Shown here: in pieces, positions 186 through 35,085 of the stretch | Layout: each line of letters starts with the position of its first letter | Numbering within the stretch: the first letter of the stretch is position 1 | Source of the DNA: Tetradesmus obliquus | Taxonomy: Eukaryota > Chlorophyta > Chlorophyceae > Sphaeropleales > Scenedesmaceae | Assembly (NCBI GenBank): GCA_030272155.1 | Contig: CP126197.1 | Span: 4,518,001-4,582,000 of the forward strand | Reading direction: 5' to 3' | Length of the DNA stretch: 64,000 bases | The notes under the pieces: model-generated | Databases searched by the model: none | Told to the model about the DNA's origin: nothing | Seen by the model: the letters and a program-made list of their open reading frames with translations, nothing else | Translations under genes and position numbers: made by a program

Positions 186-1903
186 CTCTGGCAGCCCTTT
201 CACATCTGCAGGGGGTGCCGGCCATGGTCACTGTCTAGCTGCTGCTGCTGGCGGCCCTGTGGCAGCTGCAATGCTACGCAGTGAGTCTCAGAGCCCACCG
301 TATAAGGTGCCGCGCTGGCGCTGCAAGCAGACGCCCTCACGCTTTCTGGGCCAACAACCAGGCTCAGCAGCAGCAGCTGGAGCAGGAGCAGCAGCAGCAA
401 CTGACGGTGATCTGCAGCAGGAAATGCGGCTGCTGCAAGTCATTGTCGACAACCCTGCTGGTGTGGAAGCTGCAGCAAACACGAGCAGTGGCCGTCAGGC
501 GGGCAGGCACGCAGCGCAGCAGCCGGAGAAGCAGCAGCAGCCGGAGAAGCAGCAGCAGCAGCAGCAACAGCCGGGCAGCAAGGCGGCTGAAGATGCTCTT
601 GCTGAGCAGCTTTTGCATGCTGCCCGCGCAGCGCAGCAGCAGCTGCGCTGGCAGCAGCTGCAGCACTCACTCAAGTCTGCGGCAGCAGCATGCGGCAGCG
701 GCAGCAGCAGCATGAAGGATGCGTCGCAGCAGCAGCAGGGCCTGCAGGCCTCACTGGCGCAGCTGCAGGGGCTTGTGAAACAGGGCAGTTGGCCGGAAGC
801 TGAGGCTTTGGTTGAGGAGCTGCAGCCTGGCTTGCTGCAAGAGAGCCCCAGCCTGAGGTTTGAGCTGAAGCGCTGCCACTTCATGCAGGTGGGTGCTGTG
901 CTGCGTGTTAATGAGTGCCTGGTGTATCAAATGCTGTCAGCTATTTGTGCTCCATGGGTGTCATAGGGGGGGTTGGGGTGGCAGCAGGTATGCAAGGGGT
1001 TTGGGCAAGCGTGGAAAGGGTTGCTTGTAGCAAGGACGTGCGAGGTTGCTGGTGGAAGGTTGCTGTTGACTGCGCGTGTGAAGGGAGGTACGCCCGGTCC
1101 AGCACTAACAACAAATTTGTCTGATGAGTATGTCACCCGTTGCTCAAGGGCAAGCTTTGCCAACTATGCTCCACTAACCAAAGCCCCCTGACTGGCTCTG
1201 GTATGTGCTGCAGCTGGTGCAGTCCAACGACCTGCCAGGGGCCCTGCAGCTGGCCCGCAGCCAGCTCACTCCCTTGGCAGATGCGCACCCAGAGCTGCTG
1301 CCGCAGCTCAAGTCGAGCATGGCGCTGCTGTTGCCAGGCCCTGTCTTTGGAGCAGCAGCAGCAAACACAGCAGGCAGCAGCAGCAGCTTGGAAGAGGCCG
1401 GCAGCAAAGTGCTGTCGCAGCTGCTGCCGCTGCTGCAGTCCAAGCTCGGCGTGGAGCCGCCGGCCCTCGTGAAGCTGTTCAGGGTTCTGCTGACGGCGCA
1501 CAAGGGGTGGTTTAGGGTGCAGCGCTGCCAGGACCCCTTTGCTGCTGCCATGGGGCTGCATAAGCTCCTGCAAGCTGACTCAGCGGCAGCAGCAGCTGGC
1601 TCTGCTGCAGATGGTACGGCAGCAGCAGCACTTGCAAGCCCATGCGCCGCCGCAAATGCGGCTGCAGCCGGCGTAGCAGCAGTTGCAGGTGCTGACGATG
1701 ACTCAGACTTGCAGGATCAGCCTCCGGAGCTGCATGATGCCGACATGAGCGGCAGCGAAGATGCTGAGGGGTTAGAATTTGATGAGGCTGAGGTGCTGCA
1801 GGTGATGGAGGTGCTGGAGCTGCCCCGGGCTACTGCACTGGAGCTGCTAGCAGAGCAGGGCGGCGATGCACAGGCGGTCATTCTGGCTGCATTTGGCGCA
1901 TGA
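25..1903 (+). CDS. CTLH/CRA-domain protein with C-terminal UBA-like domain (two exons)
   Basis: Model: exon 1 from 25 to 888, exon 2 from 1214 to 1903, joined in phase 0, giving 517 residues. The first 200 residues are low-complexity Ala, Gln and Ser. Around residues 245-330 a helical segment with the pattern LRFELKRCHF, then LVQSNDLPGALQLARSQL, then PELLPQLKSSMALL matches the CTLH domain and the start of the CRA domain found in RanBPM and GID/CTLH ubiquitin-ligase subunits. The last 40 residues, with LPRATALELLAEQGGDAQA, read as a three-helix UBA-like domain. No LisH motif is visible. CTLH proteins generally act as scaffolds in ubiquitin ligase assemblies; that role is inferred here. The gene is close to the window edge, so an upstream exon or start cannot be excluded. 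The ATG at 25 is the first in frame and is followed by a second ATG. Confidence 0.72.
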
Positions 1904-2251
1904 GGTGGTACACATCTTGAAGACAGCGCTGAGTGCATGAGGTGCGCAGAAGTCACTGCTGAAGGAGCAGGGCGACGATGCACAGGCTGTGATTTTGGCC
2001 GCATTTGGCGCTTGAGCGGCAGCTTGGTGATGGTGATGGCGATGGTGTTGCATTTGAGCTGCGCTGGAGCTGCTTGCGGAGCAGGGCGGTGATGCATCGG
2101 CGGTCATTCTGGCTGCGTTTGGCGCTTGAGCGGCAAGCTGGCACAAGGTGATGATGGTGGTGGTGGCGTTGCATTCCAGCACTGCGCTGGAGCTGTTGGC
2201 AGAGCAGGGCGGCGATGCACAGGCCATCATCTCGGCTGCATTTGGTTGACG
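1830..2251 (+). repeat. Four tandem copies of the UBA-encoding terminal exon end
   Basis: The last ~75 bases of the preceding gene, including its stop codon, recur three more times downstream. Copies end near 1904, 2016, 2130 and 2251, so spacing is about 110-120 bp. Each copy keeps the GCAGAGCAGGGCGGCGATGC core and the TTTGGCGC-stop ending with scattered substitutions; the fourth ends TTTGGTTGA. The copies lie in the 3' flank or 3' UTR. They could act as alternative terminal exons only if suitable acceptors exist, which I do not see clearly. Confidence 0.85.
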
Positions 2252-3494: not shown

Positions 3495-6400
3495 ATGACT
3501 AAGCGATGCTCTGGCCGTGTGGCAGCCTATGTGCTGGCAGCTGCATGGATGTCTATATGGATTGCATCTGTTCAATCTGCTGGAGTGGCGTACGTCACGT
3601 ACGCTTCGCCGGATGCCGGACTGGCTCTGCAGTCTGCACTGCAAAGCGATGCAGAGACCATCGTGTTGCTCAGCAACTACTCTATCGGCCAGGAGTTCGA
3701 TGAGTTTGTGGACAAGCCTTTGCCCATTAACAGGCGAGATCAGGCACAGTGCATGCTCCCAGACCCATGCCAGAAGCACAAACAGCAGCGCTGCTGCTAG
3801 CATGACTTGTGGACCAGATGGCAGGCGCAATTAGCAACAGGCTTGAGTTCACCAAAGATGCTTTTGAAAACTATACTGATGAAAATCACGCTGTTCAACC
3901 TCAACATGCGCCCTCCTGTGCTACCATGCCCTCATGCAGCATATCAGTTCTTCACGCTCCGCTGCTGCATGCCATGTGACACATGTTGAACCTGTTTGCA
4001 GGAATGTGACCATCACCAGCCAGCCAGGCCAGCTGCCAGTGCTGGACCTAGCAATGAAGCCAGGCATCTGGGAGCTCTGCTCAACATGCACACTTCGCTT
4101 CCTGCGAGTCAACATTGCAAACGAATCCAGCAGGGGCACAGGCACCATGATTAGTGTGGTGCGGGGTCAGGGGCTAGGCAGCCGATTGGAGCATCTGGAT
4201 TCGTATGGGCTGCGGGTGGTGTGTCCTTCTACACAATCATCGCTGGCGATTATCAACAGCACGCAGCGCAGCGCGGCATACCCTGCGCCTGGAGGGCGGC
4301 AGAGGGCAGAGGCAGTCGATGCTACCTATAAGGTGTGTTGCGCGCAGCATCACAGCGTTACTGTTGGCGAAGACTCAGTGCACACATTTACTTGGCATGT
4401 GTTGCACAGGCTATGTCAGACAGTGTTTCTGGCAGCGACTCTATGCAAGATGATGTTAGGCGCCAACAACAGCAGCAGCATTGCACGGCAGCACCAACAA
4501 TGCTGCTCCGCTGTGTCTTTTGGTGTATTCCCGTATGCACACTTGACCGGCTGCTTTCCTGCAAGTACCGCACCCCTCACTTGGTTGTGTGTGACTGCGT
4601 GTGACTGCGTGTTGCAGGGCAGGATGTTCTCGGACATGGTGCATGTGACAGACATCAGCAGTGATGTCCCACTGCAGCTGGTGACTGGAGGGCACTACGT
4701 GGGCGGCTATGCTCTGGTGAGAACCGTCAGCCCTTTGCACTGCATTGATACTGAACTTATGTCGTCTTTGTCAACATGCTAATCCAGCAATTTAGCGCTG
4801 CTGTGTGAGCTCATGCTGCTGCAGCGCGCGGCTGCACTGGTGCATCACTTGCATTATGTTTCCTTTGATGTCTCCTTGAAAGTGTTTTCTCTGATGTCTC
4901 TATCAACATATCCGCTAATGTCTCTGCCAACGCAGTACCGCCGCAACGCAACGCGCCTGTGCGATCATGTGGTGCCAGATGAATGCCTCAGGAGGGAGAC
5001 CCCAGAGGCTTGCATCTCGCAGCTGACAGAGGCAGTGCTGGGTGCCGGGCCAGCAGCAGCAGCAGCTGCTGGCGGCAGCAGCAGCCGGGCGGCTGCCATT
5101 GCTGCTCCAGTAGCGGTTGGAGGTGCGTTGCTAGTAGCAGCTGCTGCTTGTGCTTTGTGGGTGCCGGATCGGCAGCTTTGTTGCACATGCAGCCCCGTTG
5201 GACACATAGCTGTTGCAAGTGCTGCTGCTGGATTACTGCACAAAAGATGCCTGCAGAAACATATGCCATTACTTGTACGACATGTGCATGCCTTGCCATG
5301 CTGTGGTGCAGTTGTTCCACGCGCCACAACACTGTGTGTGCGTCTGCTTGCGCTGCTGGTGCTGCCACTGCAGGTGCGCTGCTGCTGGCGTCCGCAACTG
5401 CTCTCCTGTTGTGGCGCAGGCGCCGTAGCAAGCGGCTCTCTGCGCACCTGCCTCTGCGGCCGCTGCACAGCAGCAAGGACGATGATGACTTGACTTTGAC
5501 GTCAGGGCCATTTGCTGGCACAGGCACTGGCCAAGGCACAGACCCACAACGTAATCAAGCAACGCAGGCTGCTCTGCTGCTCAGGTACAATGTCTCATCC
5601 GCAACAAGGGTTTGCTGCCAAGAACGGGACACAGCAGATGATGCACTGGACTAGTGCAGCGATCCTGCCTCGGCGGCTGATTGTGCCACATGCTAGTATG
5701 GTGTATTGATGTGAGGTGCTGCTGTAGCCGCCTGCAGACTGCTTTGCAACCGTCCGGGTGCTGCCATGGGCACCTCGTGGTCATGCCCCTGTTGTTCTGC
5801 ACACTGCCACGCAAAAATATTTTTTCTACAGCTGCAGGTAATGGGCTTGGAGCCCAGGGGCGCTGCCCCCTGGTCAGGCACACCCTTTCCAGCCGTAACT
5901 CAGAGCAGCATGGGTAGCCACACACTGACTTTCTCACTGCGCTACACCTGCTCCTGCGCCCTTCTTGCCGTGCAGTGTCAGCCACCTTCAGCAGCAGCAG
6001 CAGCAGCAGCAGCTTCATGCACCCAGCCAGCCGTTGCTGCACCACCTCGGCATTGAGCCAGCCTCCGCTGCAGGCTCTGGCATCCTCCACAGCTATGCAA
6101 CAGCTGGTGCATCTGCAGTTGGCTCTGTGGTCACAGGCGCAGCAGCAGCTATGCCAGGCCTTGCTGCTGCTGCTGGTGGTGGTGGTGGTGGCGCTGCTGC
6201 TGCTGCTGGCTCTGGTGTGTGGGAGCTGTCATGGTGCCGTACAGCTCCCAGCATGGAGTGGGCGGCACAGGAGGATGCTGGCATCGAGCTTGGTGAGCAC
6301 AGGATGCTGGTTTTGCAATTGACAGCGTTTGATTCGTTTGTGTTTTTATGCTGCAACACGACACTCGTCAGAAGGAGGATGCTGGCATCGAGCTTGGTGA

Positions 6401-7206
6401 GCACATGTGTACAGCATTCTGGCTTTGGACTTGATTGCGGTGTTGATTTGCTGCACAGGAGGATGCTGGCATACAGCTTGGTGAGCACAGGATGCTGAGG
6501 AGCACTGCCAATGACCGATGATGTGACAGATGTGCTTTGCGTTTATGAGGCTTGCTCTGTAAAGTGTGCCTCACGCGCATGTGCAAGTGTGCCTCATTGC
6601 ACACAAGATGTCACAAGCACGATAGACAGGGAATTTGCCAGTGTCTGCTGTTTTAGGCATGGTAAATGCACAACTGCGCTCCTGGCAGCAATGCTGCTGT
6701 GCCGCTACGCATGCTGCGCCGGGTGCTGTCATAGCTGCAGTGCGGCCTGGTGCTGCTGCGTGTTGTTTGGTGCTGCAGATTTTCCTGTCCTGGTTGACTT
6801 CTGCTCACCACGCTGTGCCTGCAGGCCCGCTGCTGGGAGCTGGCTCCTTTGCGCGTGTGTTCAAGGCCAAGTGGGCAGGGCTGGATGTGGCGGTCAAGGT
6901 GAGAGCGGTGACAGTTGTGCTCACCCATGCATGAAGGTATGGACTTTAGCCATGTTACATTGTCTGGTCTTGCAGTGATGGGCATGTGCTGGGCTGTGTG
7001 CTGCTGCATTGTGCTGTTATGCACTGCCGCAAGAACAGCACAGCTGCTGATGCTGCTGCTGCACCTGCAGCTGCATTCAAAGATTTGACAGCTGCATTTG
7101 GTTGCTGCTGCTGCAGGTGATCCAGCACGACACGTCTACTGCGGAGGCAGTGGCGAATGAGGTGCAGCTCATGATGCAGCTCAACCACCCAAACATTGTC
7201 AGGTGG

Positions 7207-7255
<49 letters not shown>

Positions 7256-7892: not shown

Positions 7893-7956
<64 letters not shown>

Positions 7957-10900
7957 GAAGCAGCAGTTGCTGCGGCTGACAGTGGTTGCGCCTGCACCAC
8001 TGGCAGAACCATACAGGTCTGCCATTGTTCCTGTGCCGTCGCTGCCGCGGACGCCACTCAGTAACACGCTGCCGCCTGCAGCTGCTGCCGGCCTGCTTAC
8101 CCCCAGCCCCATCACCCCTGCAAGTGCAGCAATAACGGCCAGCACAGCATCAGGAGTTACTGCTGACACTTTGAGCTCTAGTGGCCCAGCAGCAGCAGCA
8201 GCAGCAACACCGCAAGCACTGCAAGGCACTGGCAGTGCTGGGATGAGTTCAGCAGCAGCTGCGGCTGCCAGTCAGTTGGCCAAACTTGAGTTGGTTGCTC
8301 GGGGCGCTGCTGCTGGCAGCAAGTGGCGTACAGCAAGCCCTAGAAAGGCCGCCTCTTTTACTGGCGGCAGCAGCAGCAGCAGCAACAAGCCAGCAGCAAC
8401 AGCAGTGGGCCCAAAGCTTGGCACAGCACGTGCAGCATATGCAGCTGGCGGCAGCCACAGCAGCCATGACAGTGATGAGAATGGGCCAAGGTCGCTGTCT
8501 TTCGGCAGGCCTATGCGGGGCATAGCTAGGGCTCTGTATGCAGACAGCTACAGCAGCATAGGCACCCCTGCCACACCAGCAGCCGCAGCAGCGGAGGTGT
8601 TGGCAGGCGCCAATGGCAGCGGCAGGAGTCGCACCGGAGGTGCAGCTACACAGCTAGGAACAGCCACAGCAGCATATGCTCCTGGTGGTGGCAGCAGCAG
8701 TACTGCTGCCGCTGCTGCTAGCCAGCGCATGCAGGCAGCACCAGCACCAGCAGGCACACCCGCACCTGCACCAGCACCACCACCAACTGAAATAACAGCA
8801 GCAGAGCTACCAGCAGCAGCAGCAGCAGCGACTTGGCGCCGGCCGCCAGGAGACATTGCGTCCCGGGCAGCGCTGTCGCGCCGCTGCAGCTTTGATCAGG
8901 TCATGTCGCAGCAAGCCGCAGCCCCTCAATGGGCTCACGATGCAGGCCTCACATCTGGAGCTGGAGGAGCTGGTGGAGTGGCAGATGCTCCCAGGCGTGC
9001 AACCTTCAAGCCTGCAGCAGCGCCGCCGCTGAGTCAGCAGCTGGGGGTTGCACTGCCAGCAGGAGCTGCAGCAGCAGCAGCGGCAGCAGCAAGGCTGCAT
9101 GGTGCTGGCAGCAGCACTGCAGCTGGCATCAACGCTGCTGCAAACCCCGCAGCAGTTGCACATGGTGTACAGCCTGAGGATCTAGACATTGCAATTGATA
9201 CCCGGCCAGCTGAGAGGCGCAGGGGCAGCACCGGCAACCAGCAGCTCGGCACTGCAAGGGCTCTGTACACGCCACCTACCAGCTTCACACACAATGCAGC
9301 TGCAGCAGCAGCAGCAGCAGCAGCAGCTGGCAGCAGCAGCGCGCAGCAGCGCAGCACGCGCAGCACTCACACTAGCCCTGGGAGCCATGTTACTCCAGGC
9401 AGCAGCGAAGGCAGCGCCTGGCCGGTGATAGAGCACTCGCCGCTGCTGGACTCTGTGTGGACTGGGGACGGCTCTGATGCTGCTGGCGGTCATGATGAGG
9501 CAGCAGACAAAGGGGAGGTCGGCGAGCTGTGTGAGACCTGGCTTGTCACAGAGCTGTGCGACAGGTGAGGCATTGAGGCATGTATATGAAGCGCAGTAAA
9601 GTGCTTTGAGCTTGCTTTGTTGTCTGCAGCTGAGTGGGACATGGCTTGTCTCAGCCCTGTGCGACAGGTGAGGCATGCATATGAAGCGCAGCGACCTGCT
9701 TGGGGCTTGATTTGTCCGCTTCCCGGCTGTGGGAGACTTGGCTAGTTTGCAGAGCTACGAGAGGTGGTCATTTGACAGCAGCCAGCTTGCCTGCATGTGT
9801 TGCCGTGTTTCGCACAGGTTTTGGTTGGGTCCTTGTTTGCCTGGGCTCAGCTGTGCTTCTGTTGGCAGTGGCAGGCCCTCTTAACGCGCAGCGCCCGCTA
9901 GCGCAGCATCAGTGTCGCAGCACCAAGGACAGCACAGGCACGACACAGGACGGTCCTTTCACTGCTGCTGCTGCTGCCGCCGCTGTGTGTTACAGGGGCA
10001 CGCTGGCGCGCGTGGCTGCCGACTGGCAGCCCCAGTCAAACAAGGAGGACGTGCTGCGGCTGCTGCTGCTGCTGCAGGACGTGGCGCGGGGCCTGAAGCT
10101 GCTGCACACGAAGCACATCATCCATGCAGACCTGGTGAGCTGCTGATGTATACATTTTTGTTCACAATCTCACTGCCTCCAGCAGCTGTGCGGCACCTTA
10201 CGTAGTTTTGCAAGCGGATCGCAGTAATATGCTTGCTGCGAGCGTGCAGGAGCAATCCTTGCAACGGCAGCATTGGGCAAACTCTTGCTGCTGCTGCTGC
10301 TCCTGCCACTGTCTGTGCTTACCCCTGCGTTGCAGAACTCACACAACGTGCTGGTCAGCAGCGGCAGCACTGCGCAGTATGGGCTGGTGGCGAAGATAGC
10401 CGACCTGGGGCTGAGCAGGGTGGTCAAGCAGCACGCCACGCACAGGACCACGCGCACGGTGAGTGGCACATGCTTGCACAGCTGCCTGCTCATACTATGA
10501 GCCTTAGCAAGGCCAGCAGCTGTGCAGCAGGCAGGAGCCAGTGTGTGTGCCAGCTTGCTTTTCATGAGCTGATGGCATGCTGTGCATAGCGCATGTGGTG
10601 GAGGTGCTGATGACTATATTGGTGCTCGTGGCTTGGCAGCTGTGCTGGTCTTGAGGCATGCGCCAAATGTACAGCAGGTTCACTCGAACCATCTCCTCTA
10701 TCACCCGGTACTCAAATGTTCGGCAGCTGCCGTGGCTGTGGGGCATGCACCGCTTTTATAGTATGCAAACTCACACGATGTGCTTGGTGTGTTTCGCTGT
10801 ACATTCCCTGCTGCTGTTGCCGCTGCAGGTGGGCACGCTGTCGCACCAGCCGCCTGAGCTGCTGCAGGACGGCCGCAGCTCACCAGCAGTGGACATCTAC

Positions 10901-11599: not shown

Positions 11600-11635
<36 letters not shown>

Positions 11636-11735
11636 GTGCAGGTGCTGGCGTGCCGAGCCTGCTCAGCGGCCGTGCGTGGACATGCTGCTGGACTGCCTGG
11701 CACTCATGATCCAGGACAGGAGCCAGGCAGCCTAA
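3495..11735 (+). CDS. Transmembrane TKL-type receptor-like protein kinase, 14 exons
   Basis: Exons: 3495-3733, 4002-4332, 4618-4716, 4936-5122, 5374-5584, 5976-6292, 6825-6898, 7117-7202, 7606-9564, 9996-10134, 10336-10458, 10829-10939, 11165-11277, 11642-11735; phases agree throughout and give 1360 residues. Residues 1-30 are a signal peptide. The ectodomain to about 275 has N-glycosylation motifs (NVTI, NESS, NSTQ, NATR). A transmembrane helix near 280-303 is followed by WRRRRSKR. The kinase domain begins near 461: GAGSFARVFKAKW glycine loop, VAVK lysine, alpha-C glutamate in VANEV, then a low-complexity insert of about 640 residues before ETWLVTELCD. The C-lobe has HADLNSHNVLV (HRD as HAD), ADLGLSR (DFG as DLG), a PPE motif, DIYSFG and CWRAEPAQRP. 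Family knowledge points to an active surface serine/threonine kinase; ligand and partners are unknown. Intron 1 uses a GC donor. Confidence 0.85.
6262..6500 (+). repeat. Triplicated exon end plus splice donor in the kinase gene
   Basis: The last ~25 bases of kinase exon 6 and the donor (AGGATGCTGGCATCGAGCTTG followed by GTGAGCAC) occur at about 6271, 6377 and 6463. Only the first copy is continuous with the coding exon. The others sit in the intron, each with an intact GTGAGC donor. The third copy carries ATACAG in place of ATCGAG. Spacing is about 105 then 87 bp. Confidence 0.85.
7876..7955 (+). repeat. CAG triplet run encoding poly-Gln in the kinase insert
   Basis: A nearly pure CAG run from about 7897 to 7955, broken by one CAA near its end, encodes roughly 20 glutamines inside the insert that splits the kinase N-lobe. 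It is in frame with the predicted exon 7606-9564. Runs of this kind are a length-polymorphism hotspot. Confidence 0.85.
9525..9770 (+). repeat. Three copies of the exon 9 end and donor in the kinase gene
   Basis: The exon end encoding ETWLVTELCD, its donor and about 60 bp of following intron recur downstream. Copy 1 ends at the true donor, 9564. Copy 2 ends near 9667 with CTGTGCGACAGGTGAGGCAT and the same following intron text (ATATGAAGCGCAG). A more diverged third copy lies near 9725-9765. Confidence 0.75.
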
Positions 11736-12290
11736 AGTAATATGCATATTACTTGATCCATATGGATCAAGGCGTGGCTTGTTTAGTTGAAGCACAAGGC
11801 ACAGCATGCCTTGGCGCTCATGATACAGGACAGGTGCCAGGCCGCCTGAAGTCAGGACAAGACGCAGCTGCCTTTGCGCTTGTGATGACACAGCACAGGA
11901 TCCAGGCAGCTTGGAGTAAGGACATGCTGCTGGACTGCCTGGCACTCATGATCCAGGACAGGAGCCAGGCAGCCTGAAGTAAGGACAAGACGCAGCTGCC
12001 TTTGCGCTTATGACACAGCACAGGATGCAGGCAGCATGGAGTAAAGACGTGCTGCTGGACTGCTTGGCACTCAAGATTCAGGATAGGGCGCATGCAGCTT
12101 GTAGTCAGGACAAGTCACAGCCTGTTTGGAGTAGACACCAGGCGCAGCATGCCTTGGCGCTCACGATCAAGGCCAGGCATTTACCATGCCTAAAACTGTC
12201 TTATTACAGGACGCAGCCTGCCTGATCACAGGACAGGGCGCAGCCTGCTTGCTTCCAGGACAAGGCGCAGCCCGCCTGAGTAAAGCATGC
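11660..12290 (+). repeat. Tandem decayed copies of the kinase terminal exon
   Basis: The C-terminal coding segment with its stop (GACATGCTGCTGGACTGCCT through GAGCCAGGCAGCCTAA) recurs near 11921-11980 and 12046-12105. Further partial units built from CAGGACAAG, CGCAGC and GCCTGA fragments extend to about 12290. Spacing of the better copies is about 125-240 bp. This repeats the pattern seen at the 3' end of the first gene in the window, in an unrelated gene. Confidence 0.75.
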
Positions 12291-15200
12291 AACACCACAG
12301 CTGCCTTGGCAGTAATGAATGTATGACAGGAAGATGGATTCTGGACAGCCTGCTTGATGCCACTGCTTACCTGTGGCAGGCTTGGCATCAATGGTTTTGG
12401 AAAGTGGGTTTTGGAGCTAGCAGTACCAGGTGCTGCGGTAGGGCAACACCAGGTGTTGCAGCACATTGCAAGATTGTCTGTGCACTGGGTTTGGGGCGTT
12501 TGAGATGCTTTGAGCGGTGCAAACTTGACTGGCACTTGTTGGTGAGTTTGCATTGCAGTATCTTTGGCATTACTTTTGCTTGCATTGATATGTGCTTGCG
12601 CCGATCCTCAAGGATAGAAAGTGACTTTTTGAGTGGAATGCTGGATGGCGTGGTGTGCTTGATGGTTGCTGACTGTGTGGTGTGCTTGCCCAAGCAGCAC
12701 CTGTGGGCACAACGGCGTCGGGGCGCACATGCGTCATGGCTGCCGCGGGCTGGCACACTGCTGCTGCCATGCTGTACTGCGCTTGCTTGCCAGGGAGTGG
12801 GTGCACGTGTTGCTTTTAGCTGGGGGCTCGCTACAGGTGCCTGCTGCGCCCTGCAGCCTGCGGTGATGCCCACTGCTGAGATGTAGCAAGCTCATCATGC
12901 TGTGGTGTACATGTTGTTTGGGTTGGGCTGCAATGACGGACGCTGATTGTATCTTTTGGGGCATGTCTCGGCACTGACATTGGGTTTGAGCACTTGGCTT
13001 TGGTGGGTCGCAAGCATGGTTGATTTCAATATCAAGCGACCTGGAGCACAGTGCTGGCGGCAGCATGATTCGAAAGATGACTGGTTGCTCTTGAAGACAA
13101 GGGACGTGCACAGGGGCTGGAAACTGACGTTGTGCCCGCAGTGACCCTGCTGCAAGCTGGCAGCCCTGCACTGTTGATTCAGCATGCGAGGCACACCTCA
13201 GCGGCACGTGAGGTTCAAACTAGCAATGGCGTTACTGTGCAGTACTGCACGTTCTGGAGGTTGCATGTTGCAGTGTTGATTCAGCATGCGGAGCACACCT
13301 CAGCGGCATGCATGATCTGAGGCTGGCAGTGACACTGCTGTGCAGTACTGCACATGTTGGAGGTTGCATGTGGCTGAGCAATGCATGCATGCGATTTTAG
13401 GCCGCTGCGCTGCTGGGGTTAATGTTGCATGTTTGCGTGGGCGGGTCCGTAGGGTAGCCTCTGGTGTAGCAGGAGGCGCAAGCGTTGATGCAACCTGCAT
13501 TATTGCGTCCTGGTGAGCTTGTGTCACAGCTTGTAGGGTTCCTAGCACATGACCTGCGGGTGGTGAGTGTTTGCAGTTGCAAATGCCCACAGCACTCAGT
13601 TCTGCAGCTCTGATCTGTACAAAGTGCTGTGATCAACCGCTTCCTGATGGCGTTGGTATTCTGGCAGACACAGGCGGGGCATGTACATGCACATGTGGCG
13701 TCGTCCAGGTCGAGAATGCTTTCAACCCCAGCGATTCTACAGTACTGTCGTCATGATGCGGGAGATCGGTAGCTACATGTTGGTTGCGGGGAGCTTTTGA
13801 AGATATGTTCTGTGTGTTTTGTGTTGGCCGCGGCATCAGGCTGCCAGCAGATGCCTACAGGGCCAGGTTGGCGGCCTGGTATTGCATGTGATTCTGCGCG
13901 GTACACTGCTGGCTCAGCTTGAATCAACTTGGTAGGTGTCTGCGCTGTATGCCAAGTTGGCGTGTTGGCAGGGTGAGGCAGCGGTGGCTGCCTGTGTTTG
14001 GTGAGGCTGACAACTACGGTCTTCCTGCTCGTGGCTGCAAGTGCCTTCCAAACTGTGCATGGCTGTGCTGCTTCGTGCGTTGTACGTGAGCATCAATGCA
14101 CCAGCTTGTGCCAGGGCGCAACTGGTGTTGTGCACTGCATGCCAAGCATGCAACAGTGCATCGTGCAATGCTGGAAGGTGCGCAGCTTTGCATTTTTCAT
14201 GCTAGACTGTCCATCTTTACATTGTGGTGGCCGGCCCCCGATCCCAGAGCCCATGTGTGGCTGTTGAGGTGGTGTTGTGCATTGCCCGGTCTGCATGTCA
14301 CACGCCAGGCATGAATGGAAGTTCAGCATCCTGACAACAAAAGCTGACCAGCAGCCTGACAGGAGCCCGGCACTGTCGCTGGCAGCAGCCACAGGCAAGC
14401 CAATGTGAATGCTGACCAGCAATTGCGCTGCAGTAAAGGGACCTATATCTGCGCTGGCGTGCAGGTCGGTGAGATACAGTTGCATCAAAACTTGTCACTT
14501 CTTGACTTCTTTCAACCTCAGGGTGCCTAGTAGGCAAGGCATGTGCTGCTGCTAACGTTTGTGCATCAGTGTTTTGTTGTACGTCTGCATCAGCGTGCCG
14601 AGTACCTGTTGTTGCACAGCGCAACGGTTGTCGGGTGGCGCAACAGTCAAGCTTGTGCTGTCAAGTATGTTACTGCATATGGCATGGCTGGCTGGTTGAA
14701 GCCGCAAGACTCGTGTTGCGGCTACACGCTTCAACATACTGCAGCAGCCACTGCTAGCAGCAATGCCGCTGGTGCACGTGTCAAACAGCAAGTTGCTGCA
14801 TGCCCTAGCAGCATGGGTACATGCTGTCATGTGCTTTTGTAACTGTGTCATGGTTGGATAGCAATGCTGCAGTTGTAGCGCTCCTGATGCGCTGATGCTC
14901 TCACTGTACACTCACCCACTGGCGGCGCATGACGGTTGGGTACATGGCAGTACATGTACTGCCAGCATGCCCCTGCACAGGACCTCACTTGTAGCCTTGT
15001 ATGCGGTATTCATGCGGAGAAAGTTCAAATTATACACTAGGGGCCCTCGGCACGATGACATACTTGCTATTGTTGCTCGCAGGATGTGAAGGATGACAAA
15101 TCAAGATTTGTCCATCATTTGTGTGACAACCTCCGTTTGGTCCTGTTGGGCTGCAGGAAACTCGGCAAACTTGACAGGCAGACATGCCGTGTTTCTTTGA

Positions 15201-15362
15201 TGTCTGCACGCGGCAAACACCGGCTAAACGGCTGCAGCATGGTGCAAGCTGACTGTTTACCAGGAAATTACAACGCCTGCAGCACATCTCTGCTTCACAC
15301 CGCAAAGCACAGAACACAGTTTTGTTGTAGCTCCAACGCTTGATTTTATAAGTGAGTGAGCT
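12291..15362. other. Intergenic region, no gene supported
   Basis: About 3 kb without a convincing exon. The + strand remains G+T-rich until about 15.06 kb and then becomes C+A-rich just before the next gene, consistent with a long downstream zone of the kinase gene. Open frames are short and none shows domain-like sequence. A two-unit tandem repeat is listed separately. Confidence 0.5.
13165..13385. repeat. Two-unit tandem repeat of about 105-110 bp
   Basis: The segment beginning TTGATTCAGCATGCG and continuing through CACACCTCAGCGGCA and GTGCAGTACTGCAC to GGAGGTTGCATG is present twice, first near 13173 and again near 13276. The units differ by small indels and substitutions. No coding role is evident. 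Confidence 0.75.
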
Positions 15363-19347: not shown

Positions 19348-22300
19348 CTAGCTGCTGCTCAGCAGGGCTGCTGCCGGCGCAGCCCCTGCTTGCTGCTGCA
19401 GCTCTGCAGGCAGCTCTAGGCTGTAGTGCTCAGCCAGCAGCTGTAGCACTGCAGCATTGCTGGCTGCTACAGCCACTCCCTTGAGCTCCTCTGAGCGCAG
19501 CATGCCATGCTGCTCACAGCCCTGCAGCAGGATGAATTGCCATGCCGTGCAGTAAGCAGGCGTGGGTTCAGTAACCTTGTAAGGTCAGTGGAGCTGCGGC
19601 CCTGACAGCCTGATGTTGCAGAGTGCTGGCCATGTTCACTGCTACAGGTTCGGTTGCCTGGCTGGCGAATCCGCATCAACACGTGTGACAATTGGGATGC
19701 CATTGCTGAGGGACAAGCTGCATCATTCTGATCTGCTACTACTGCTGCCTGTGCAGCTAGTAGCCAAAGCAGGTAACTCACAAACAGCTGCAGCACAGCG
19801 CCACATTAGATGTCACAGCCAGCTTGCACTGCAGCCGCCCTCACCTGCACAAATTGGATGAACCCTTGGTAGAACCCGTCATAATCAACCAACACCACAG
19901 GCGCTGCTCCACGTGGCACCGCTGCTGCAGCAGCTGCTGCTGCTGCTGCTACTCCGCTACCATTTGAGTGCGCATCCTGTGTTGTCGCCAAGCAACCTCT
20001 TCCTCCTGCTGCTGCTGCTGCCGCTGGTGCTGCTGCTGCTGTGGCTTTTAGATGCGGCAGCTTCTTCAGCTGCATCAGCGTCAGCAGCTCAAACAGCTCA
20101 TCCATAGTGCCCAGCCCACCAGGCAGGAAGATGAATGCGGTGCGGTCAGCGGGGCCTGCTGCACAGCCCGCCTGCACCAGGCCCGACTTGCGCGTGGCCA
20201 GGTGCCGGCACACCACCTGGGGGGCAATGATACAGACATAGGCAGTGCAAACAACAGCGATGGTCCTCACAGTGTCTGACATCGAGCAACAGCAGCAGCT
20301 CATCAGCCAAGTCCCTGTCGCGCAGTCCTGACGTGCACCTGCACCCACATGCACCACGCGCCTCAATTCAAACACCATTGCACCCCCACATACACCAACA
20401 CTACAGGTTGCAGCCCCGACCGCGCAAATCTCAGGGTGTGTCTGCGGTGCCAATTTGCACCGCACCTGTGCATCTTCCGGCAGGTATGTGCCGCTGAGTA
20501 CAGTTGTGCCGGCCTCCCGCTGCAGCCGTATGCCGCCCACTGCGCCGCCTGCCGCTGCTGCACCCACCGCTTACTGCCGCTGCCGCCAACGCGCAGGCTT
20601 ACAGCATGCGACTCAACTCCCGCCCTCCACAATCGGCACAGGGACAACACCGCAGGTTGCAGCCCTGAGCAAGCACTCTCATTCTCAATCAATGCAGACG
20701 CCTCCAGCTCACACCTGTGCATCATCCGGCAGGTATGTGCCGCTGAGTACAGTTGTGCCGGCCTCCCGCTGCAGCCGTATGCCGCCCACCGCGCCTCCTG
20801 CTGCTGCTGCACCCTGAGAGGCCGCCTGCATGAGTCCCGGGCCGCCTCCAGTCCATGTGGGGCTGCCTAGCAGCTGGGCCACCTGCACAGATGCAATTAG
20901 TGGATTCTTACATGCTGAATCAGGTATGGAAAAGATGGACATCACGTTGATGACAGTGTAGCGAGAGCAGCAGAGTAGAGTTGTGTACAGAGGTGTGTGG
21001 GTGCGTTTGTTGGGAAAAGTGACACTTGAGTTGCAGTTTGACGGCAGGGCACAACTCGCGTTGGCCGCCTGCATGAGCCCTGGGCCGCCACCAGTCCATG
21101 CGGGGCTGCCTAGCAGCTGGGCCACCTGCACAGACAAATGTGCAGCAGCATGTATCACAGAGCATTAGTAGAAATGCAGCTGTTGGCAGCACTGGCTGTG
21201 GACAGCTCAGCAGGATAGTTCATGTGGGGTTGCGCAGCAGCTGGGCCACCGGCACGGCAGAAGAAAGTTGGAACGATCTACGCAATGCATCATGATGTTT
21301 GAAAGTGTAAATGGCAGCAGCAGGCCGAGCTGTCCATGTGGGGCTACCCAACAGCTGGGCCACCTGCACGGCAGAAGAAAGTTGGAACGATCAACGCAAT
21401 GCATCATGATGTTTGAAAGTGTGTGAGAAGCAGCAGCAGGCTGAGCTGTCCATGTGGGGCTGCCCGATAGCTGGGCCACCTGCACAGAAAGTATGCAGCA
21501 GCATGCACAACACGTTGATACTTGACAGTGGCTGTTGGCAGCACGTGCTGTGGCAGCTCAGCAGTATTGTCCATTGGCATGAAACCCGCAGAGCTGTGGT
21601 GTCGCGCCTCACCTGCCGCGCCAGCTGCTGTGTCTGCTGCCAGATGCTGCTGCCCGGCTGCACACGGGCACTGCCAAAGTACACCTGCAGCAGCACAGCA
21701 CAGCAGCAGCAGCAGCAGCAGCAGCAGCTCAGCAGGGCAGCAATGGCCACAGTTCAATGCCCTCCGGCAGACGCTGCTGCAGGCAGCTCGCAGTGGCCTT
21801 TGCGGAGTGCTAGCGCGCATTTCATATCGACAACGCGGTAACAGCCTCACTTTCTGCAATGCGTGTTCACCACCCTGCGCCCGATCTTCTCCACAAGTCC
21901 ACAGGCAGCCAGCTGCTCCTGTGCTACCTGGCCCTGGCCACACTGCACATCTAAGGCTGTTGTCACATAGCTGCGCAGTACACCAGGAAGCTTTCACGCA
22001 CTCAGCCATAGTACCAAACTCAAAATGCACTCCCTGCACTCCGTCATCACTTACCACTCCTCGCCCAATCTTCTCCACCAGGCCATATGCAGCCAGCTGC
22101 TCCCGTGCCACCTGGCCCGCAGCCTCCGCCAGCGCTGCTGCTGCATGCGGGCCCAGCAGCCGCTTGTGCATCCAGTGCAGCTGCGCACGGCCCACATCAG
22201 CTCCCAGCACCTGGCAGCAGGGCAAATGCGTTTTTTTACAGAAGTTCACATGCACGTGCCTCTTGCAAAAGTCTACAGCACCACATCACGGCCCACATCA

Positions 22301-23678: not shown

Positions 23679-23719
<41 letters not shown>

Positions 23720-27336: not shown

Positions 27337-30300
27337 ATGGCAGGCAGGGGCAGGGCAGCCACGCTGCCCGCATGGATGACAGGTGACTGCAGTGACTGTC
27401 TGCAGCACAGCAAGCTGTGCCTGTGCTGCTGCAGCCAACTGCCTGTGCCTGGGCACCTGATAGTGTTTATTTCAACGATTTATGTTGCGTTTGTCCTGCA
27501 GGTGGAGGTGCAGCACCTGCTCCAGGCGCACCAGCAGCATCCGGCCCCCCGGTGCGTGGCTACTGCTGATGAGCAGCAGCGCCCACAGCACCAGCCATAG
27601 CAGCATCTCTTACCTGTAGGACGTCTCTGGCACAAACGTTTTGCCACTGCTGGGTAGCAATGTATGCAGCTGCAGCTTCACAGCAGCCGTTTGCTCTGCT
27701 TTGCAGCAGTCCACGCTGCAAGCGTACCTGTGCTGCGCAGGAAAGCCAGCTGCCTCACATGCCTCACCTTCAGTTGCACTATCATACAAACAAAAACAGG
27801 AAGAACCTAGTAGTGCTGACAACGTTTTGCGCCGCACTTGTGTCCTGCAGGCGGCACATGCTGGAGGCCCTGCAGCTCCTGGCTCAGCAGCAGCTGGGGT
27901 GAGCAGCAGGCCAACATAGCCAGCAATATCTATCAGCCCGACTTTGCAGCAAGCATAGCTGATGCCATGGCGCGTGCTGACAGCGCTGCTGCAATGGCGC
28001 GGTTTTGCTGTTGGACATCATGGGCGGCAGTGTGCTCAGCCCCTCTGGCAGCAGGCACAGCTGCTGCCAAGGCAGCTGCCAACAGTGCTGCTGCAATAAA
28101 CGCGACTGTGTTGTATGACAGCTGTGCACCTCTCCCGCTAATCTGCACACATCGGGTGTGCAGCAGCACCTGCTGCGGTGCTGCCTTCTCATCCACTTTC
28201 GCACTGCCGCACGCGTGTATGCTCACATGCTGGTCCCTACTGCTGCTTGCCGCCGCACTCTGCTCTGCTCTGCCTCACTGCTGCCCTGCTGATTCATATT
28301 TATTCTAATTCAATATTAAACAAGATCTTTTGGAGCTTAAAGGATATGAGTGTGTTGCCGCAGGCTGGCGCTGCTCTTCTACAGGCCCAGGCCATTGCAC
28401 AGAGCCTCACAGCGCAAGGCCCCACAGGCGTAGTCTCACAGCAGCCCGGCACACCAGCAGCAGCAGCAGCACTAGGCATGCAGCGAGCAGCCATGGTGGT
28501 CCCCTCTAGCATCTCCCCAGGCGGTGCTGCTGCTGCTCCATCCCCCACCGGCCAGCAACATGCAGCAGCGCCTGCCAACACCGCCGCAATGGCAGCTGCT
28601 GCGATCGCAGCCGCGCAAGCAGCCGCCGCAGCAGCAGGCGTGGGGTCCGGCGGTGCACCAGCAGCAGCAGCAGCGGCGTCAAACCCAGCAGCAGTAGCAG
28701 CAGCAGGAGGGGTACCCCCTGGCATGTATGGGGCAAGGCCGCCGGGCCTGCCAGGCATGACAGCAGTAGGAGGGCCACCTTTGGGGGGTGTACCGCCTCC
28801 CCTTGGGGCCGTTCCGCCTGGTGCTTACCCCATGCCTGGCGTACTGCCTGGCCAGCCGCCGATGTTTAGGCCCCCTCCTGGTGAGAGCTGTGCTAGCTGT
28901 TGCATTACTGTGCTGTGCTGTGGTGGACTGTGCTGCATGTGCTGTGGTGCATGTGCTGTGGTGCATGTGCTGTGGTGCATGTGCTGTGGTGCATGTGCTG
29001 TGTTGTGCTGTGGTGCATATGCTGTGCTGTGTTGTGCTGTGGTGCATGTGCTGTGGTGCATGTGCTGTGCTGTGCTGCGCTGTGTTGTGCTGTAGTGCAT
29101 GTGCTGTGCTGTGCTGTGCTGTGCTGTGCTGTGCTGTGAAGCCTGGCCAGCCGGCGATGTTTAGGCCGCCTCCAGGTGAGAGCAGCGCTGCGTGTTGCAT
29201 TACTGTGCTGTGCTGTGGTGGACTGTGCTGTGGTGTATGTGCTGTGCTGTGCTGTGCTGTGCTGTGGTGTATGTGCTTCGCTGTGCTGCGCTGTGGTGTA
29301 TGTGCTGCGCTGTGCTGTGTTGTGCTGTTTGAGCTGCGCTGTGCTCTGCTGTGCTGCACTGTGTTGTGCTCGATGTTTAGGCCGCCTCCAGGTGAGGGCC
29401 GCGCCGTGCTCTGTTGTGTTTGAAGTGATCTGGTGTGCTGCTGCACAACAGGACAGTGATCTGCAGCAGACAAAGTGTGCCTGTTGCTGAGTGTCGTGCT
29501 CATGCTGCCTATGTCAAAACAGCTGCAGCCGGGGCCTCCTTTCTGAGTGAGTGGATACTGCTGCTGCTGCTGCTTGTTTGCAGGCATGCCGCCTGGTATG
29601 CTGCCGCCGCCAGGTTTCCCGGGCGCACCCGGCATGCCTTTCCCAGGCCAGCCGCACCTGCCGTTCCCTCCACACATGCAGCACATGCCGCCGATGCAGC
29701 AGCAGCAGCAGCAGCAGCAGCCGGTGCCGCAGCAGCAGCAGCCGCAGAGTGACTGGACGGAGCACCCGGGGCCGAATGGGCGCTCGTACTTCTTCAACCG
29801 CGTGACCAAGGTGTCCACCTGGACTAAGCCCGACGAGTTGATGACGGCAGTGGTGAGCTGTTTGTTTAGCCACAACGGCAGCTGTAGTGTCTGCCAATGT
29901 GTGATGCATGACTTAGAGTTCAATGGCAGTCGGTGCGGCTGTGGTATTTGGCGCATCTGATCTGCAAGTGTACATTGTATGTATGACCTAGGTGTGTATG
30001 CTTGCTGCCAGCAACAGCACTTGCTGCAAGCAACATCTCTTCATGATGTGTGTGCAGGAGCGGGCAAAGGCAGCAGCAGACAAAGCAGGCGCAGCAGCGC
30101 CAGCAGCAGCAGCAGCAGCACCAGCAGCGGCAGCACCGGCAGCAGCAGCAGCTGCCCCGGCAGCAGCAGCACCAGCAGCCGCAAGCTCAGCTGCTGCTAG
30201 TGATGTAGCAGCAGCAGCAGCAGCTGGCAGCAGCAGTGCAGTGTCAGAGGCAGCAAAGGCCTGGAAGCAGTACACAGCACCAGATGGCCGGCCGTACTTT

Positions 30301-33300
30301 TATAACAAAATAACAAAGGAGAGCAAGTGGACGATGCCGGAGGAAATGAAGCAGGCAGCAGCAGCGGCGGCTGGCGGCACAGCAGCTGCAGGCAAGGCAG
30401 CACCAGCAGCAGCGGCAGCAGCTAACGGAGATGCCAGCAGAGACGCTGCAAAGGTGCGCAACAACAAGTCTTGAGCTCTGGAGCAGGATGCACACTTCAG
30501 CAAATGCCGGCGTGTTGCGACTGTCAAGATCTTGACAGCATGTATGTCGTTTTTTTCTTCAGCAGCCAACTACAGCTCAGGCATCGCCGTGCAGCTGATG
30601 TTTTACTGTCTCTTTCGTTTGCATCAGACATTCCAGCAACCCCTGACATTCCAGGTTTTGCTGCTGGCCCCAGCATAACTCTGCCGTCACATCTGACACA
30701 TGATTTTGGCATACCCTCAACTTGTCTCTGCTGTGTTCTACTGTACGCTCGTCCTGTGTGATGCTGCCGTTTGCACAGGCCAAAGAGCAGCCAGCAGCAG
30801 CAGCAGCACCTAAGGCCAAGGAGGAGCCTGCCAAGCCCATTGTGTATGCCACCAAGGAGGCAGCCAAAGAAGCTTTCAAGGCGCTGCTGACGGACTTTGA
30901 CATCCCAGCAGGTGTGCATTGCTGCTGAGCTGTGCTGATTTCTGCTGTGGTGTTGCGGTCTGTTCTTTGCCAAAGGTCCAAGGCTGGCAGCGCAGCGGCT
31001 GGCCGGCTGGCTGAGCCCTGACCAGCACCAGCAGCAGGAGCGCAGTTGGCCAGGGTTGCTGAACAGACACTGGCCTGCCAGCATCACGGAGGGTTTTGCA
31101 AGCCTTGTGAGGACCTGGTGCTGGATGTATTCAGACTGCAAGCTTGAAGCAAACCCGTTGTTTCCGCCCTGCTGCTGCCGCTGCCACTGCCATTGCTGCT
31201 AATGCCGCCGCTGCTGCGCCGCGCCACCGCAGAGGCGTCATGGGACAACGCGATGCGGCTGATCATCCACGATCCGCGCTACGGCGCGCTCAAAGCGCTG
31301 GGGGAGAAGAAGTCTGCCTTCAACGAGTACTGCACGGTGAGAAGCAAATACATGCGCACATGGCCAGGGCTTGAACCTGGGGTTTGCCTCTGGAACAGAA
31401 TGCGGCTCTGGGCAGTAGTGTGAGGCACTGGGCAGACTGTGGGTCTTTGTGTGGCAGGGTTGGTGTGCCGGGACGGGCCGCGGTGGCGTGTGCTGTCTAT
31501 GTATGCTGTGAGCGTCGTCTTACTCTGTACATGGAATGCACATGCTATCTCGACGCAAAGGACACTAACACCTGCTAGAACTGCATTCTGGGTATGCTAT
31601 CATGCTTTGTAAGGGCGCGCACAGGCGCCAATGTTGTGTGTTGGGGCCCCAAACACCCTAGATATGTCGTGTCTCAACCACCAAGGCAAACAGTAGGCGC
31701 TGTCGACTTCTCCACCTACCCTGCATGATGTGTGGACAGCTGTTTCACAACTACAACTGCTGTGCACTCATCATAGCTAGCGCAAGGTGTCAGGCGTGGC
31801 GCGCTGCTGAGCGTGAGGGGGCAAGGCGGCCAGGTTGCTGCTAAAGAAGGCTTCAAGGCGCTGCTGGAGGATGCTGAGATATGATCATGCATCAACATCA
31901 AAGCCACATTAAACATATATTGTGACTGTTGCATGCAACTGTACAGGCACGGCGTGCTGCTGAGCGTGAGGAGGCGAGGCGGGGCCAATTCGCTGCCAAG
32001 GAGGGCTTCATGGCGCTGCTGACAGGCATCCTGTTGCTGAATGCCTGTTTATCCAAACTTCTGCCTGCAGGCGCGGCACGCTGCTGAGCACAAGGAGGCA
32101 AGGCGGTGCCAAGCCGCTGCCAAAGAGGCTTCGTGACGCTGCTGGCAGAATATGATTTGCCAGTCATCCACAAACAGTTGTTGTGCATGTTACTTGCGAT
32201 GTGCAGGCGCGGCGCGCTGCTGAGCGTGAGGAGGCAAGGCGGCGCCAGGTTGCTGCAAAAGAAGGCTTCATGGCGCTGCTGACGGATTTCGACTTACCGG
32301 TCATCTGTCCAACATTACATGTGCATGCTACTTGCAACTGTGCAGGCGCGGCACGCTGCTGAGCGTGAGGAGGCAAGGCGGCGCCAAGTCGCTGCCAAGG
32401 AGGCTTCATGGCGCTGCTGGAGGATTTCAACTTACCAGTCATCTGTCCAACATTACATGTGCATGCTACTTGCAACTGTGCAGGCGCGGCGCGCTGCTGA
32501 GCGTGAGGAGGCAAGGCGGCGCCAAGTCGCTGCCAAGAAGGCTTCATGGCGCTGCTGGAGGATTTCAACTTACCAGTCATCTGTCCAACATTACATGTGC
32601 ATGCTACTTGCAACTGTGCAGGCGCGGCGCGCTGCTGAGCGTGAGGAGGCAAGGCGGCGCCAAGTCGCTGCCAAGAAGGCTTCATGGCGCTGCTGGAGGA
32701 TTTCCACTTACCAGTCATCTGTCCAACATTACATGTGCATGCTACTTGCAACTGTGCAGGCGCGGCGCGCTGCTGAGCGTGAGGAGGCAAGGCGGCGCCA
32801 AGTCGCTGCCAAGAAGGCTTCATGGCGCTGCTGGAGGATTTCCACTTACCAGTCATCTGTCCAACATTACATGTGCATGCTACTTGCAACTGTGCAGGCG
32901 CGGCGCGCTGCTGAGCGTGAGGAGGCAAGGCGGCGCCAAGTCGCTGCCAAGAAGGCTTCATGGCGCTGCTGGAGGATTCCAACTTACCAGTCATCTGTCC
33001 AACATTACATGTGCATGCTACTTGCAACTGTGCAGGCGCGGCGCGCTGCTGAGCGTGAGGAGGCAAGGCGGCGCCAAGTCGCTGCCAAAGAAGGCTTCAT
33101 GGCGCTGCTGGAGGATGCTGCTGAGCTGGAGCCCGGTGACACGTATGACCGCGCTGCTCGCCTGCTCAACCACGACGGGCGCTGGAAGGTGCGCTGCGCG
33201 CGGCAGCATGCACTGCAGCATGCACTGCAGCATGCGCTGCAGCATGCGGCTGACAGACTGTAAGAGTGTAACACCAGTGCTTCTATGCTGCTGGGGTGGT

Positions 33301-35085
33301 GCGTGAGGCGGCCTTAGCTGAGGCTGCAGGAGCTTTCCAGCAGATGCGGCGTACGGCAAATGATGTGTGTCAGGTGATGGCTTGCCCACGCACCATGCGT
33401 TCTTGCTGCAAGTGCATGCTGTGTCACCGCGGATCAGCTGTCGTGATTGCCAAACTGTTGGTTGAACTGCTGTTCAATCTTGGTCAAACACGGTCAAACT
33501 GCTGCTGCTGCTGCTGCTGCTGCTGTCTTGCAGGAGGTGGAGTCTGATGCGCTGCGCCGGGAGCTGTTCAAGGACCACATGGAGGCACTCAAGCGCAGGA
33601 GGTGGGCCTGCGCTGCTGCTTCGGCTGCTGCTGCTGCTGCTGCTGCTGCATTGTCTTTGAGCGTGCGTTCCTACACCTGCCTTTGTGTCGTGCACAGTGA
33701 CACACGGCGGCTAGACATGCGCTGACCACGGTCTCTTGCTGTGCACTGACCCATCCTGCTGCTGCGCTCCCTGCTGCTATCGCATGGCGACTCATCATGA
33801 TGCATATCCTTTGCAAAACCCTTCTGCTGCACCTCACTTCAGGGTTGAGACTGAGAAGCGCAAGCAGGAGAGTGCTGTGGCTGCCTTCAAGGCCTGCTTC
33901 TGCCCTCATGCTGCTGCTGCTGCCGTATGGTGACTCGTCACTCTCTCACGCATTACTCTCTCACGCATTTTAACCCCAACTCCGTTGCAAAACCCATCTG
34001 CTGCACCTCATTTCAGGGTTGAGGCTGAGAAGCGCAAGCAGGAGAGTGCCGTGGCTGCCTTCAAGGAGCTGCTGGCCCGCAGCAGCCTCAAGCCCAGCAG
34101 CAGCTGGCGCAAGGTGGCGGCCAAGCTGCAGGACGAGGAGGCTTACGAGGTGCGGATTGAACCAACGTATGGACGTGCTATTGTGTTTGTTTGAGTATGA
34201 TTCTTCAATGCTCAGCTGGCGCAAGGTGGCGGCCAAGCTGCAGGACGAGGAGGCCTACGAGGTGCGGCGCAGCGCCAGTGGGAATACAATGCTACCTTGT
34301 GTGCGTGCTGGATGGTTGCCGGCCTGCCTGCATGCCTGCTTGCTTACACAACACATTCAAAGCCACTTTTCTCACCCCATGTGCAGGCGCTGGACCGGCT
34401 GACGCGCCTGGAGGTGTTCCAGGCGCACATCCGGCAGCTGGAGGAGGAGGAGCGGCAGGCCAAGGAGCGGGAGAAGGAGCTGGTGCGGCGCAGGTGAGAG
34501 AGCTTGTGGGGGCTGATGAAGCATCGTTGAAGCACTTGCCTTGTTGCATTGCTTACTTTCCAAAGGGTGTTACAGTCGTCTCTGAGGGGGCTGCTCTTCC
34601 CTCCTTAATTTGCGCCAAGCATTGCCTCATTCGCCTGTGCTGAACCCTACATTCCACCCCACCTTACACCACCCCAACCGCATGCCGCACCCTCACCCCG
34701 CGACGCAGGGAGCGCAAGAACCGCGACGCGTTCCGCGCGCTGCTGCTGCGCCACCGCGACGAGGGCAGCATCACGGTGCACAGCCGCTGGAAGGCCTATG
34801 CGCCGCTGATTGAGGAGAGCGAGGAGTACCAGGCCGTGAAGAAGAATGCGGCCGGCAGCAGGCCGAAGGAGCTGTTTGAGGACGTCATCCTGGTGGGTGA
34901 CGTGTTATAACAGTGTGTTATGACAGTGTAATGTGACATTGAAATAATGACTGGGCCTGTCATCCACAAGGGCCGGGGTTAAAAACACTTGGATGGGTCG
35001 ATTAAGGCTGAGCGTGTGCGTGTATGTGGGAATGTCACAAGACGTCCACCTGCGACTCCGACAACTCAAACAACCGCCTTGCCCT

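Follow-up and report, generated by a model that had tools for sequence, protein, structure and literature searches.

Local direct repeats and their excess at predicted exon edges in the green alga Tetradesmus obliquus

A 64-kb window of the Tetradesmus obliquus genome (C7:4518001-4582000; "window" denotes this whole stretch) contains same-strand local repeats, several of which take in the edge of a predicted exon together with its splice signal. In the window and in a wider sample of the genome, such local copies were found at exon edges in excess of neighboring intron sequence. The genes concerned in the window include a protein kinase gene (~5982-11735) and a WW/FF-domain gene (29584-36398), which we take to be PRPF40-like; Pfam detects kinase, WW, and FF domains in these genes. 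The genome assembly comprises 104.66 Mb in 17 contigs, with a GC content of 57%. All exon, intron, and boundary calls are predictions from DNA alone, made with a small hidden Markov model (HMM) gene finder that we wrote and trained on the window and 20 comparison stretches, i.e., on the DNA being annotated. The predicted kinase exons translate as a single open frame, the stop of which is the stop held in a repeat arm, and the HMM exons of the PRPF40-like gene agree with those identified by eye outside the repeat copies.

An earlier note on the window had named ten places where an exon edge, or a last coding exon with its stop, appeared to be duplicated in tandem. Self-blastn (E<=1e-4) recovered same-strand local repeats at nine of them (1803-2245, 6262-6497, 9525-9715, 11678-12177, 20463-21574, 21869-22327, 28846-29404, 31791-33120, and 33807-34267). 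The remaining place, 5105-5165 versus 5374-5425, was not upheld, with no self-blastn match and a p value of 0.13 against dinucleotide shuffles. Seven of the eight pairs retested against such shuffles gave p<=0.003 (five at named places and two at unlisted places). Self-blastn added local repeats at 13167-13374, 27933-28097, and 54194-54343. The features of the window are as follows.

1833..2245, plus strand: end of a terminal coding exon with its stop (1833-1904) and tandem copies downstream; unit of ~114 bp, 3.6 copies in total
6265..6497, plus strand: kinase exon end and donor (exon ends at 6292, from the HMM) with two intronic copies, 6373-6405 and 6453-6497
9525..9715, plus strand: exon end and donor (exon ends at 9564) with a copy at 9628-9676/9715 (blastn, HMM, and shuffles)
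11678..12177, plus strand: C-terminal coding end of the kinase with its stop (11678-11740) and downstream copies at 11920-11982 (98.4% identity) and 12046-12098
20463..20814, minus strand: exon end and donor, parent 20712-20814, intronic copy 20463-20565; 4/4 mismatches at third codon positions
20820..21485, minus strand: acceptor and exon start, parent 20820-20891, copy 21063-21134, array 21218-21485
21869..22118, minus strand (taken from the predicted gene): local repeat pair, spacing 184, 84.8% identity
22186..22327, minus strand: acceptor and exon start (22186-22226) with an intronic copy (22287-22327), 97.6% identity
28846..29404, plus strand: copied exon end and donor (28846/29141; 35-nt exon end), then a CTGTG simple-sequence expansion
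31791..33120, plus strand: 10-copy array of the acceptor and exon start of the WW/FF (PRPF40-like) gene, unit of ~138 bp
33807..34066, plus strand: acceptor and exon start, parent 33981-34066, intronic copy 33807-33892
34101..34267, plus strand: exon end and donor, parent 34101-34155 (exon ends at 34149), intronic copy 34213-34267, 98.2% identity, 57-nt spacer
13167..13374, no strand assigned: local tandem repeat, unit of 102 bp, predicted intergenic (blastn and shuffles)
27933..28097, no strand assigned: local repeat, spacing 103 (blastn and shuffles)

For the array at 31791-33120, the parent exon start was read by eye at 33034, and the exon ends at 33188; the HMM instead calls one long exon (32265-33188), and either the HMM was misled here or the array is partly coding. 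The outer units hold stops in the frame of the exon, and the inner units are open. Gene predictors may call array units coding, given that the unit length of 138 bp is divisible by 3 and that the reading frame stays open through the inner units. The most diverged copies are the outer ones, and it is for this array that the claimed decay of copies with distance held. As judged from the DNA, the copies in the window carry extra predicted splice-site sequences, in line with the earlier proposal that splice sites are multiplied; AGGT was seen by eye within some repeat arms.

The comparison sample consisted of 20 10-kb stretches (L002-L021) from 16 contigs, placed at hand-chosen round positions (200 kb; 264 kb with the window). 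Five further 10-kb stretches from a random list served as a replicate (50 kb; 314 kb in total), for which the gene model was fixed beforehand and the blast settings were slightly looser than in the 20-stretch run; the replicate covers density and arm ends only. Classes and thresholds were chosen after viewing the discovery data. We found 73 local direct-repeat clusters in the 200 kb (0.365/kb; 0 to 15 per stretch) and 17 in the replicate, i.e., 90 in the 25 stretches together (0.36/kb). With 15 clusters in 64 kb (0.23/kb), the window lies under the sample mean of 0.365/kb, and the idea that it is a repeat hot spot of exceptional density was rejected. Extrapolation from the 90 clusters in 250 kb gives a genome total of ~38,000 local repeat clusters (bootstrap interval, 24,000 to 54,000).

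Copies are in the same orientation, as had been claimed: there were no inverted local pairs in the window and 3 in the 200-kb sample. They had also been described as always adjacent, which fits the uniform head-to-tail, minisatellite-like tandems at 31 nonoverlapping sites (window plus 20 stretches) but not the 70 nonoverlapping spaced pairs, the arms of which lie 25 to 260 nt apart (a spacer range that we chose). A plain tandem unit can itself straddle an exon edge, as at L003 2627-2959 (100% identity, unit of 137). The smallest spacing per cluster (n=73) is bimodal, with 48 clusters at 77 to 153, none at 154 to 178, and 16 at 179 to 250; candidate causes are a ~120 unit that occurs singly and doubled, or two separate processes.

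The excess at exon edges was evaluated with 40-mers placed by predicted junctions in the window and the 20 stretches, a local copy being defined as at least 31/40 matches within 1 kb. Local copies were found for 31/204 donor exon edges and 27/219 acceptor exon edges (58/423 pooled), compared with 10/205 40-mers in the intron beside the donor and 11/213 beside the acceptor (21/418 pooled). The corresponding counts were 60/854 for mid intron, 42/699 for mid exon, 16/930 for intergenic sequence, and 0/800 for a reversed control. Exon edges thus exceeded the adjacent intron ~3-fold (p=1e-5) and mid intron ~2-fold (p=1e-4), and at a stricter cutoff (at least 37/40) 26/423 edges compared with 11/418 in the adjacent intron (p=0.01). 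The exon-edge bias survives these controls, and the note's expectation that duplicates would be commoner at exon edges than at other intronic positions stood over the 264 kb. The adjacent intron was copied in register for just 10 of the 47 copied edges. Most copies are located toward the intron as seen from the parent edge: 20/28 donor edges have theirs downstream, and 16/23 acceptor edges have theirs upstream. As a separate observation, local copies were ~4 times commoner in mid intron than in predicted intergenic sequence, and 16 of the 60 mid-intron copies have an exon partner; the difference might point to some involvement of transcription.

Counts of repeat pairs (boundary placement, junction number, codon position, spacing, and flanks) are restricted to those in which arm length does not exceed the spacing by more than 5, with the satellite arrays in L021 and at the start of L008 set aside; ahead of the spacing and flank tests, we also took out five individually named pairs belonging to plain arrays. 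A predicted boundary fell within an arm in 65% of 132 pairs, compared with 38% under random placement in the locus. The parent arm held a single splice junction in 63 of these pairs and several boundaries in 12. Random tandem duplications will often straddle exon edges, and a constrained parent could make the exon parts look preserved, so that base rate and neutral decay alone might produce the pattern. Consistent with this account, random placement in predicted genes already meets a boundary in 43% of pairs. However, 71% of the 112 pairs lying wholly within predicted genes included a boundary, a value that none of 300 placements reached, and the contrast between edge and adjacent-intron 40-mers likewise counts against this account.

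Neutral decay was examined further through the points at which repeat arms end. We took the best pair of each cluster in the window and the 20 stretches (90 clusters, without satellites), scoring plain multijunction arrays as long. Forty-five of the 90 had at least 90% identity; these include 27 in which the parent arm contains a single splice junction, together with 4 plain multijunction arrays. The intron side of the arm measured no more than 17 nt in 19 of these 31 clusters and in 5 of 7 in the replicate 50 kb. In our simulation of tandem duplication, the parent exon and its splice signal were constrained, the copy evolved neutrally by substitutions and indels, and the products went through the same blast search; event ages were drawn evenly between 0 and 0.25 and indels occurred at either of two rates, both assumptions being our choice. 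Short intron sides made up 15% (indel ratio, 0.1) or 25% (0.3) of the simulated cases, and the observed counts exceed 25% by a binomial test (19/31, p=2e-5; 5/7, p=0.013). In favor of neutral decay, when simulated events were aged 0.10 to 0.15 substitutions/site, short intron sides made up 46 to 79% of the small number that retained at least 90% identity. An account in which all events are this old is disfavored by the divergence of edge-bounded arms, which averages 4.0 and 6.0% at codon positions 1 and 2. Neutral decay alone is disfavored, and we regard it as quite improbable.

The same arm ends could reflect copying bounded by splice sites, in which repair or template switching would copy an exon edge up to the splice signal and paste it into the nearby intron, the process being stopped or guided at splice sites. 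Transcription pausing and RNA-templated repair are possible guides for such a process. Among spaced pairs with at least 90% identity, all 14 donor arms end 3 to 17 nt into the intron, as do 5 of 9 acceptor arms at 2 to 16 nt, and the neutral simulation does not reproduce these ends. The spacers also accord with this idea: 11 of 40 searched in the 264 kb had no match, and the three searched genome-wide match nothing but themselves. Copying of the spacer from nearby was rejected as a reading; of the 40 spacers, 24 had a local match (many in longer arrays) and 19 had a distant match. A mobile element or introner as the spacer is unsupported for those three. On the other hand, plain tandem units freely span splice sites and the repeats are nearly all same-strand. 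After a larger tandem duplication, homology should extend into the intron flanks outside the two arms; pasting of just an exon edge predicts no such homology.

The flanks were compared in 29 edge-bounded pairs, left from 41 after those in plain arrays (five), overlaps, and short flanks were dropped, using a gapped, orientation-aware alignment against intron controls from the same locus. Similarity in the edge-bounded pairs is not uniform over the unit, and the flanks are weakly or not alignable. Intron-side flanks nonetheless had a mean score of 0.58, compared with 0.42 for controls, and were individually significant (p<=0.05) in 12/29 pairs (Fisher p=6e-10). Exon-side flanks were near the null (score, 0.45; p<=0.05 in 5/29; Fisher p=0.08), and the paired difference between the two sides was significant (p=0.003). 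A separate comparison with mismatched pairs was concordant (p=2e-9, n=34). In L007 2198/2382, for example, the arms are 100% identical and the intron flanks show 18% mismatches plus gaps; further examples of intron-flank homology are 6269/6373 and 9525/9628. An anchored test of spacer flanks in 123 pairs exceeded the 95% null in only 15% and 21%. The weak intron-flank homology has the position expected under a larger tandem duplication, and splice-bounded copying appears rather unlikely to us. The earlier note had also proposed a local mechanism acting at exon boundaries. The excess at edges does not refute that proposal, but a mechanism of this kind is not needed: in edge-bounded pairs, the intron flanks look like decayed homologs.

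Codon positions bear on whether the copies have been under constraint. When one copy lies in a predicted exon, pooled mismatches were 6.5, 8.0, and 13.4% at codon positions 1, 2, and 3, which is about what is expected if the parent is constrained and its copy evolves neutrally. Pairs keeping at least 25 nt of intron (n=16) differed by 4.9, 4.5, and 15.6% at the three positions and by 10.3% in the intron. This divergence roughly fits a neutral copy of a constrained exon, as neutral decay would have it where the intron still aligns, except that third positions lie above the model prediction. Positions 1 and 2 held 25 mismatches in the 12 pairs for which intron-flank homology was significant, compared with 38 expected of a neutral copy (p=0.013).

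The most similar pairs hint that some copies are or were constrained. In one-edge pairs with at least 93% identity (n=21), third positions hold 30 of 38 exonic mismatches (23 of 31 without the L019 stretch), and the third-position share across edge-bounded pairs is mildly overdispersed relative to a binomial (p=0.043). The clearest case is L019, the pairs of which come from a formate-tetrahydrofolate ligase (FTHFS) gene, identified by Pfam (C14, ~2.500-2.503 Mb; L019:300-3000, minus strand). It has three exon-end copies that are 252 and 246 bp apart, both multiples of 3, and the two adjacent exon-end pairs differ at third codon positions in 13/13 mismatches. Among the best candidates scored, the L019 arms have no match elsewhere in the genome. 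We also observed that the exon-start copies upstream and the exon-end copies downstream of one exon in this gene meet at about one internal point. The copies might accordingly be functional alternative splice sites or cassette exons, under selection on protein and splicing, and the third-position excess points in this direction. Yet the 39 edge-bounded pairs outside the FTHFS gene differ by 4.0, 6.0, and 12.3% at the three positions, with a third-position share of 0.55 that is near the neutral-copy expectation. Furthermore, spacing is a multiple of 3 in just 8 of 36 edge-bounded pairs, single-junction parent arms are common among the 132 pairs, and by eye two of the three upstream exon-start copies in L019 alter a conserved residue. 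Selection on functional copies is, in our estimation, also an unlikely explanation.

Arms that differ at third positions only, as in some pairs, resemble alleles, and together with the diverged intron flanks they could suggest an assembly artefact in which haplotype overlaps of ~100 to 250 bp were joined in tandem. Against such an artefact, the 314 kb contain no N and the assembly has only 17 contigs, arrays reach 6 and 10 copies, identities form a continuous range, and the arms of two loci searched genome-wide match their own locus only, among the best candidates scored. We consider it very improbable.

The explanation that we tentatively favor over a junction-targeting mechanism, with a confidence approaching but not reaching an even call, is ordinary local tandem duplication across exon edges, after which the exon half is preferentially preserved. 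Frequent local direct duplications would arise throughout the genome, with spacings mostly of ~80 to 150 and 180 to 250 bp. Those straddling an exon edge could survive where harmful ones would be lost, since the intact exon would still adjoin its original splice site, with the additional copy placed in the intron or the 3' flank. The intron half of both copies would then decay, and the two would remain more similar in the exon half and its splice signal, with gene conversion by the constrained exon as the probable cause. In some genes the copy itself may be used, so that its exon half would be preserved. The exon half of the copies tends to be more recognizable than the intron half. Because the intron flank looks like a decayed homolog, the exon flank is near the null, and plain tandems that include long stretches of intron exist, the bias may reflect preservation more than where duplications start.

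Several results weigh against this explanation. The exon-side flank result is near the null rather than clean, and 17 of the 29 pairs lack individually significant intron-flank homology, some of them with arms 97 to 100% identical (e.g., 34101/34213); such arms without flank homology are also what copying restricted to the exon edge would give. Alignment of the intron flanks in the 12 pairs that allow it leaves 21% of columns mismatched, compared with 29% for shuffled flanks, which is a weak signal. The extra preservation of exon positions 1 and 2 (25 versus 38 mismatches) is modest. Median spacing is 164 for edge-bounded pairs and 121 for plain tandem units (Kolmogorov-Smirnov p=0.07).

A more novel reading is concerted evolution on a genome-wide scale, in which exon ends and intronic pseudo-edges would be kept alike by conversion while the shared intron decays. 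We hold this to be possible but doubtful; an equally novel variant would be a duplication process with end points that respect splice sites. If concerted evolution is at work, introns would form a reservoir of nearly intact spare exon edges, available as alternative splice sites and new introns.

These repeats can be set beside several known systems. In tandem exon duplication, a whole exon with its two splice sites is repeated in tandem within a gene. Exon sequence is tandemly repeated here as well, but many of the copies comprise one exon edge rather than a complete exon, the 63 single-junction pairs among 132 being of this kind; the 12 pairs with several boundaries may include whole exons. 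Introner elements are dispersed families that enlarge intron sequence across a genome. Intron growth throughout the genome is common to both, whereas the three spacers and the arms of the two loci searched here match only their own locus, in place of many dispersed, nearly identical copies. Patch-mediated duplications in rice are small tandem duplications that derive from break repair, and we know of no splice-site preference for break-repair duplications.

The sections of PMC8355091 on break repair describe small tandem duplications that result from fill-in and end joining; as far as those sections go, they and the repeats described here are same-strand local duplications without a mobile element. 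The part of PMC4974935 devoted to a potato RdRp gene presents a local direct duplication that copied intron-exon structure within the gene. On that description, both cases are local direct duplications in a gene that multiply splice sites, but in T. obliquus the copies lie mostly inside existing introns beside the parent edge and occur in most sampled stretches. Same-strand local duplication of gene sequence, the mark of intron gain by tandem genomic duplication, is present here. Local duplication is an old proposal for the origin and growth of introns, with few proven recent cases according to PMC4974935. For the terms tried, one open-access literature collection returned no account of genome-wide exon-edge copies. 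In a table of PMC5966456, T. obliquus introns have a mean length of 462 bp, compared with 230 to 302 bp in the four other algae of that table, and exon-edge copies may bear on why they are longer. With perhaps 38,000 clusters and an excess at edges, the path from duplication through decay to possible splice-site use could be quantified instead of being debated on isolated examples.

Two larger repeats were also observed. In the window, a 1.6-kb duplication with 72% identity (48366-50003 / 51219-52868) is accompanied by a third, partial copy (54754-55040), and these are perhaps tandem genes. In L021, positions 1-3959 and 4115-6039 are occupied by long tandem arrays with units of ~279 and ~345 bp, most of which the HMM calls coding.

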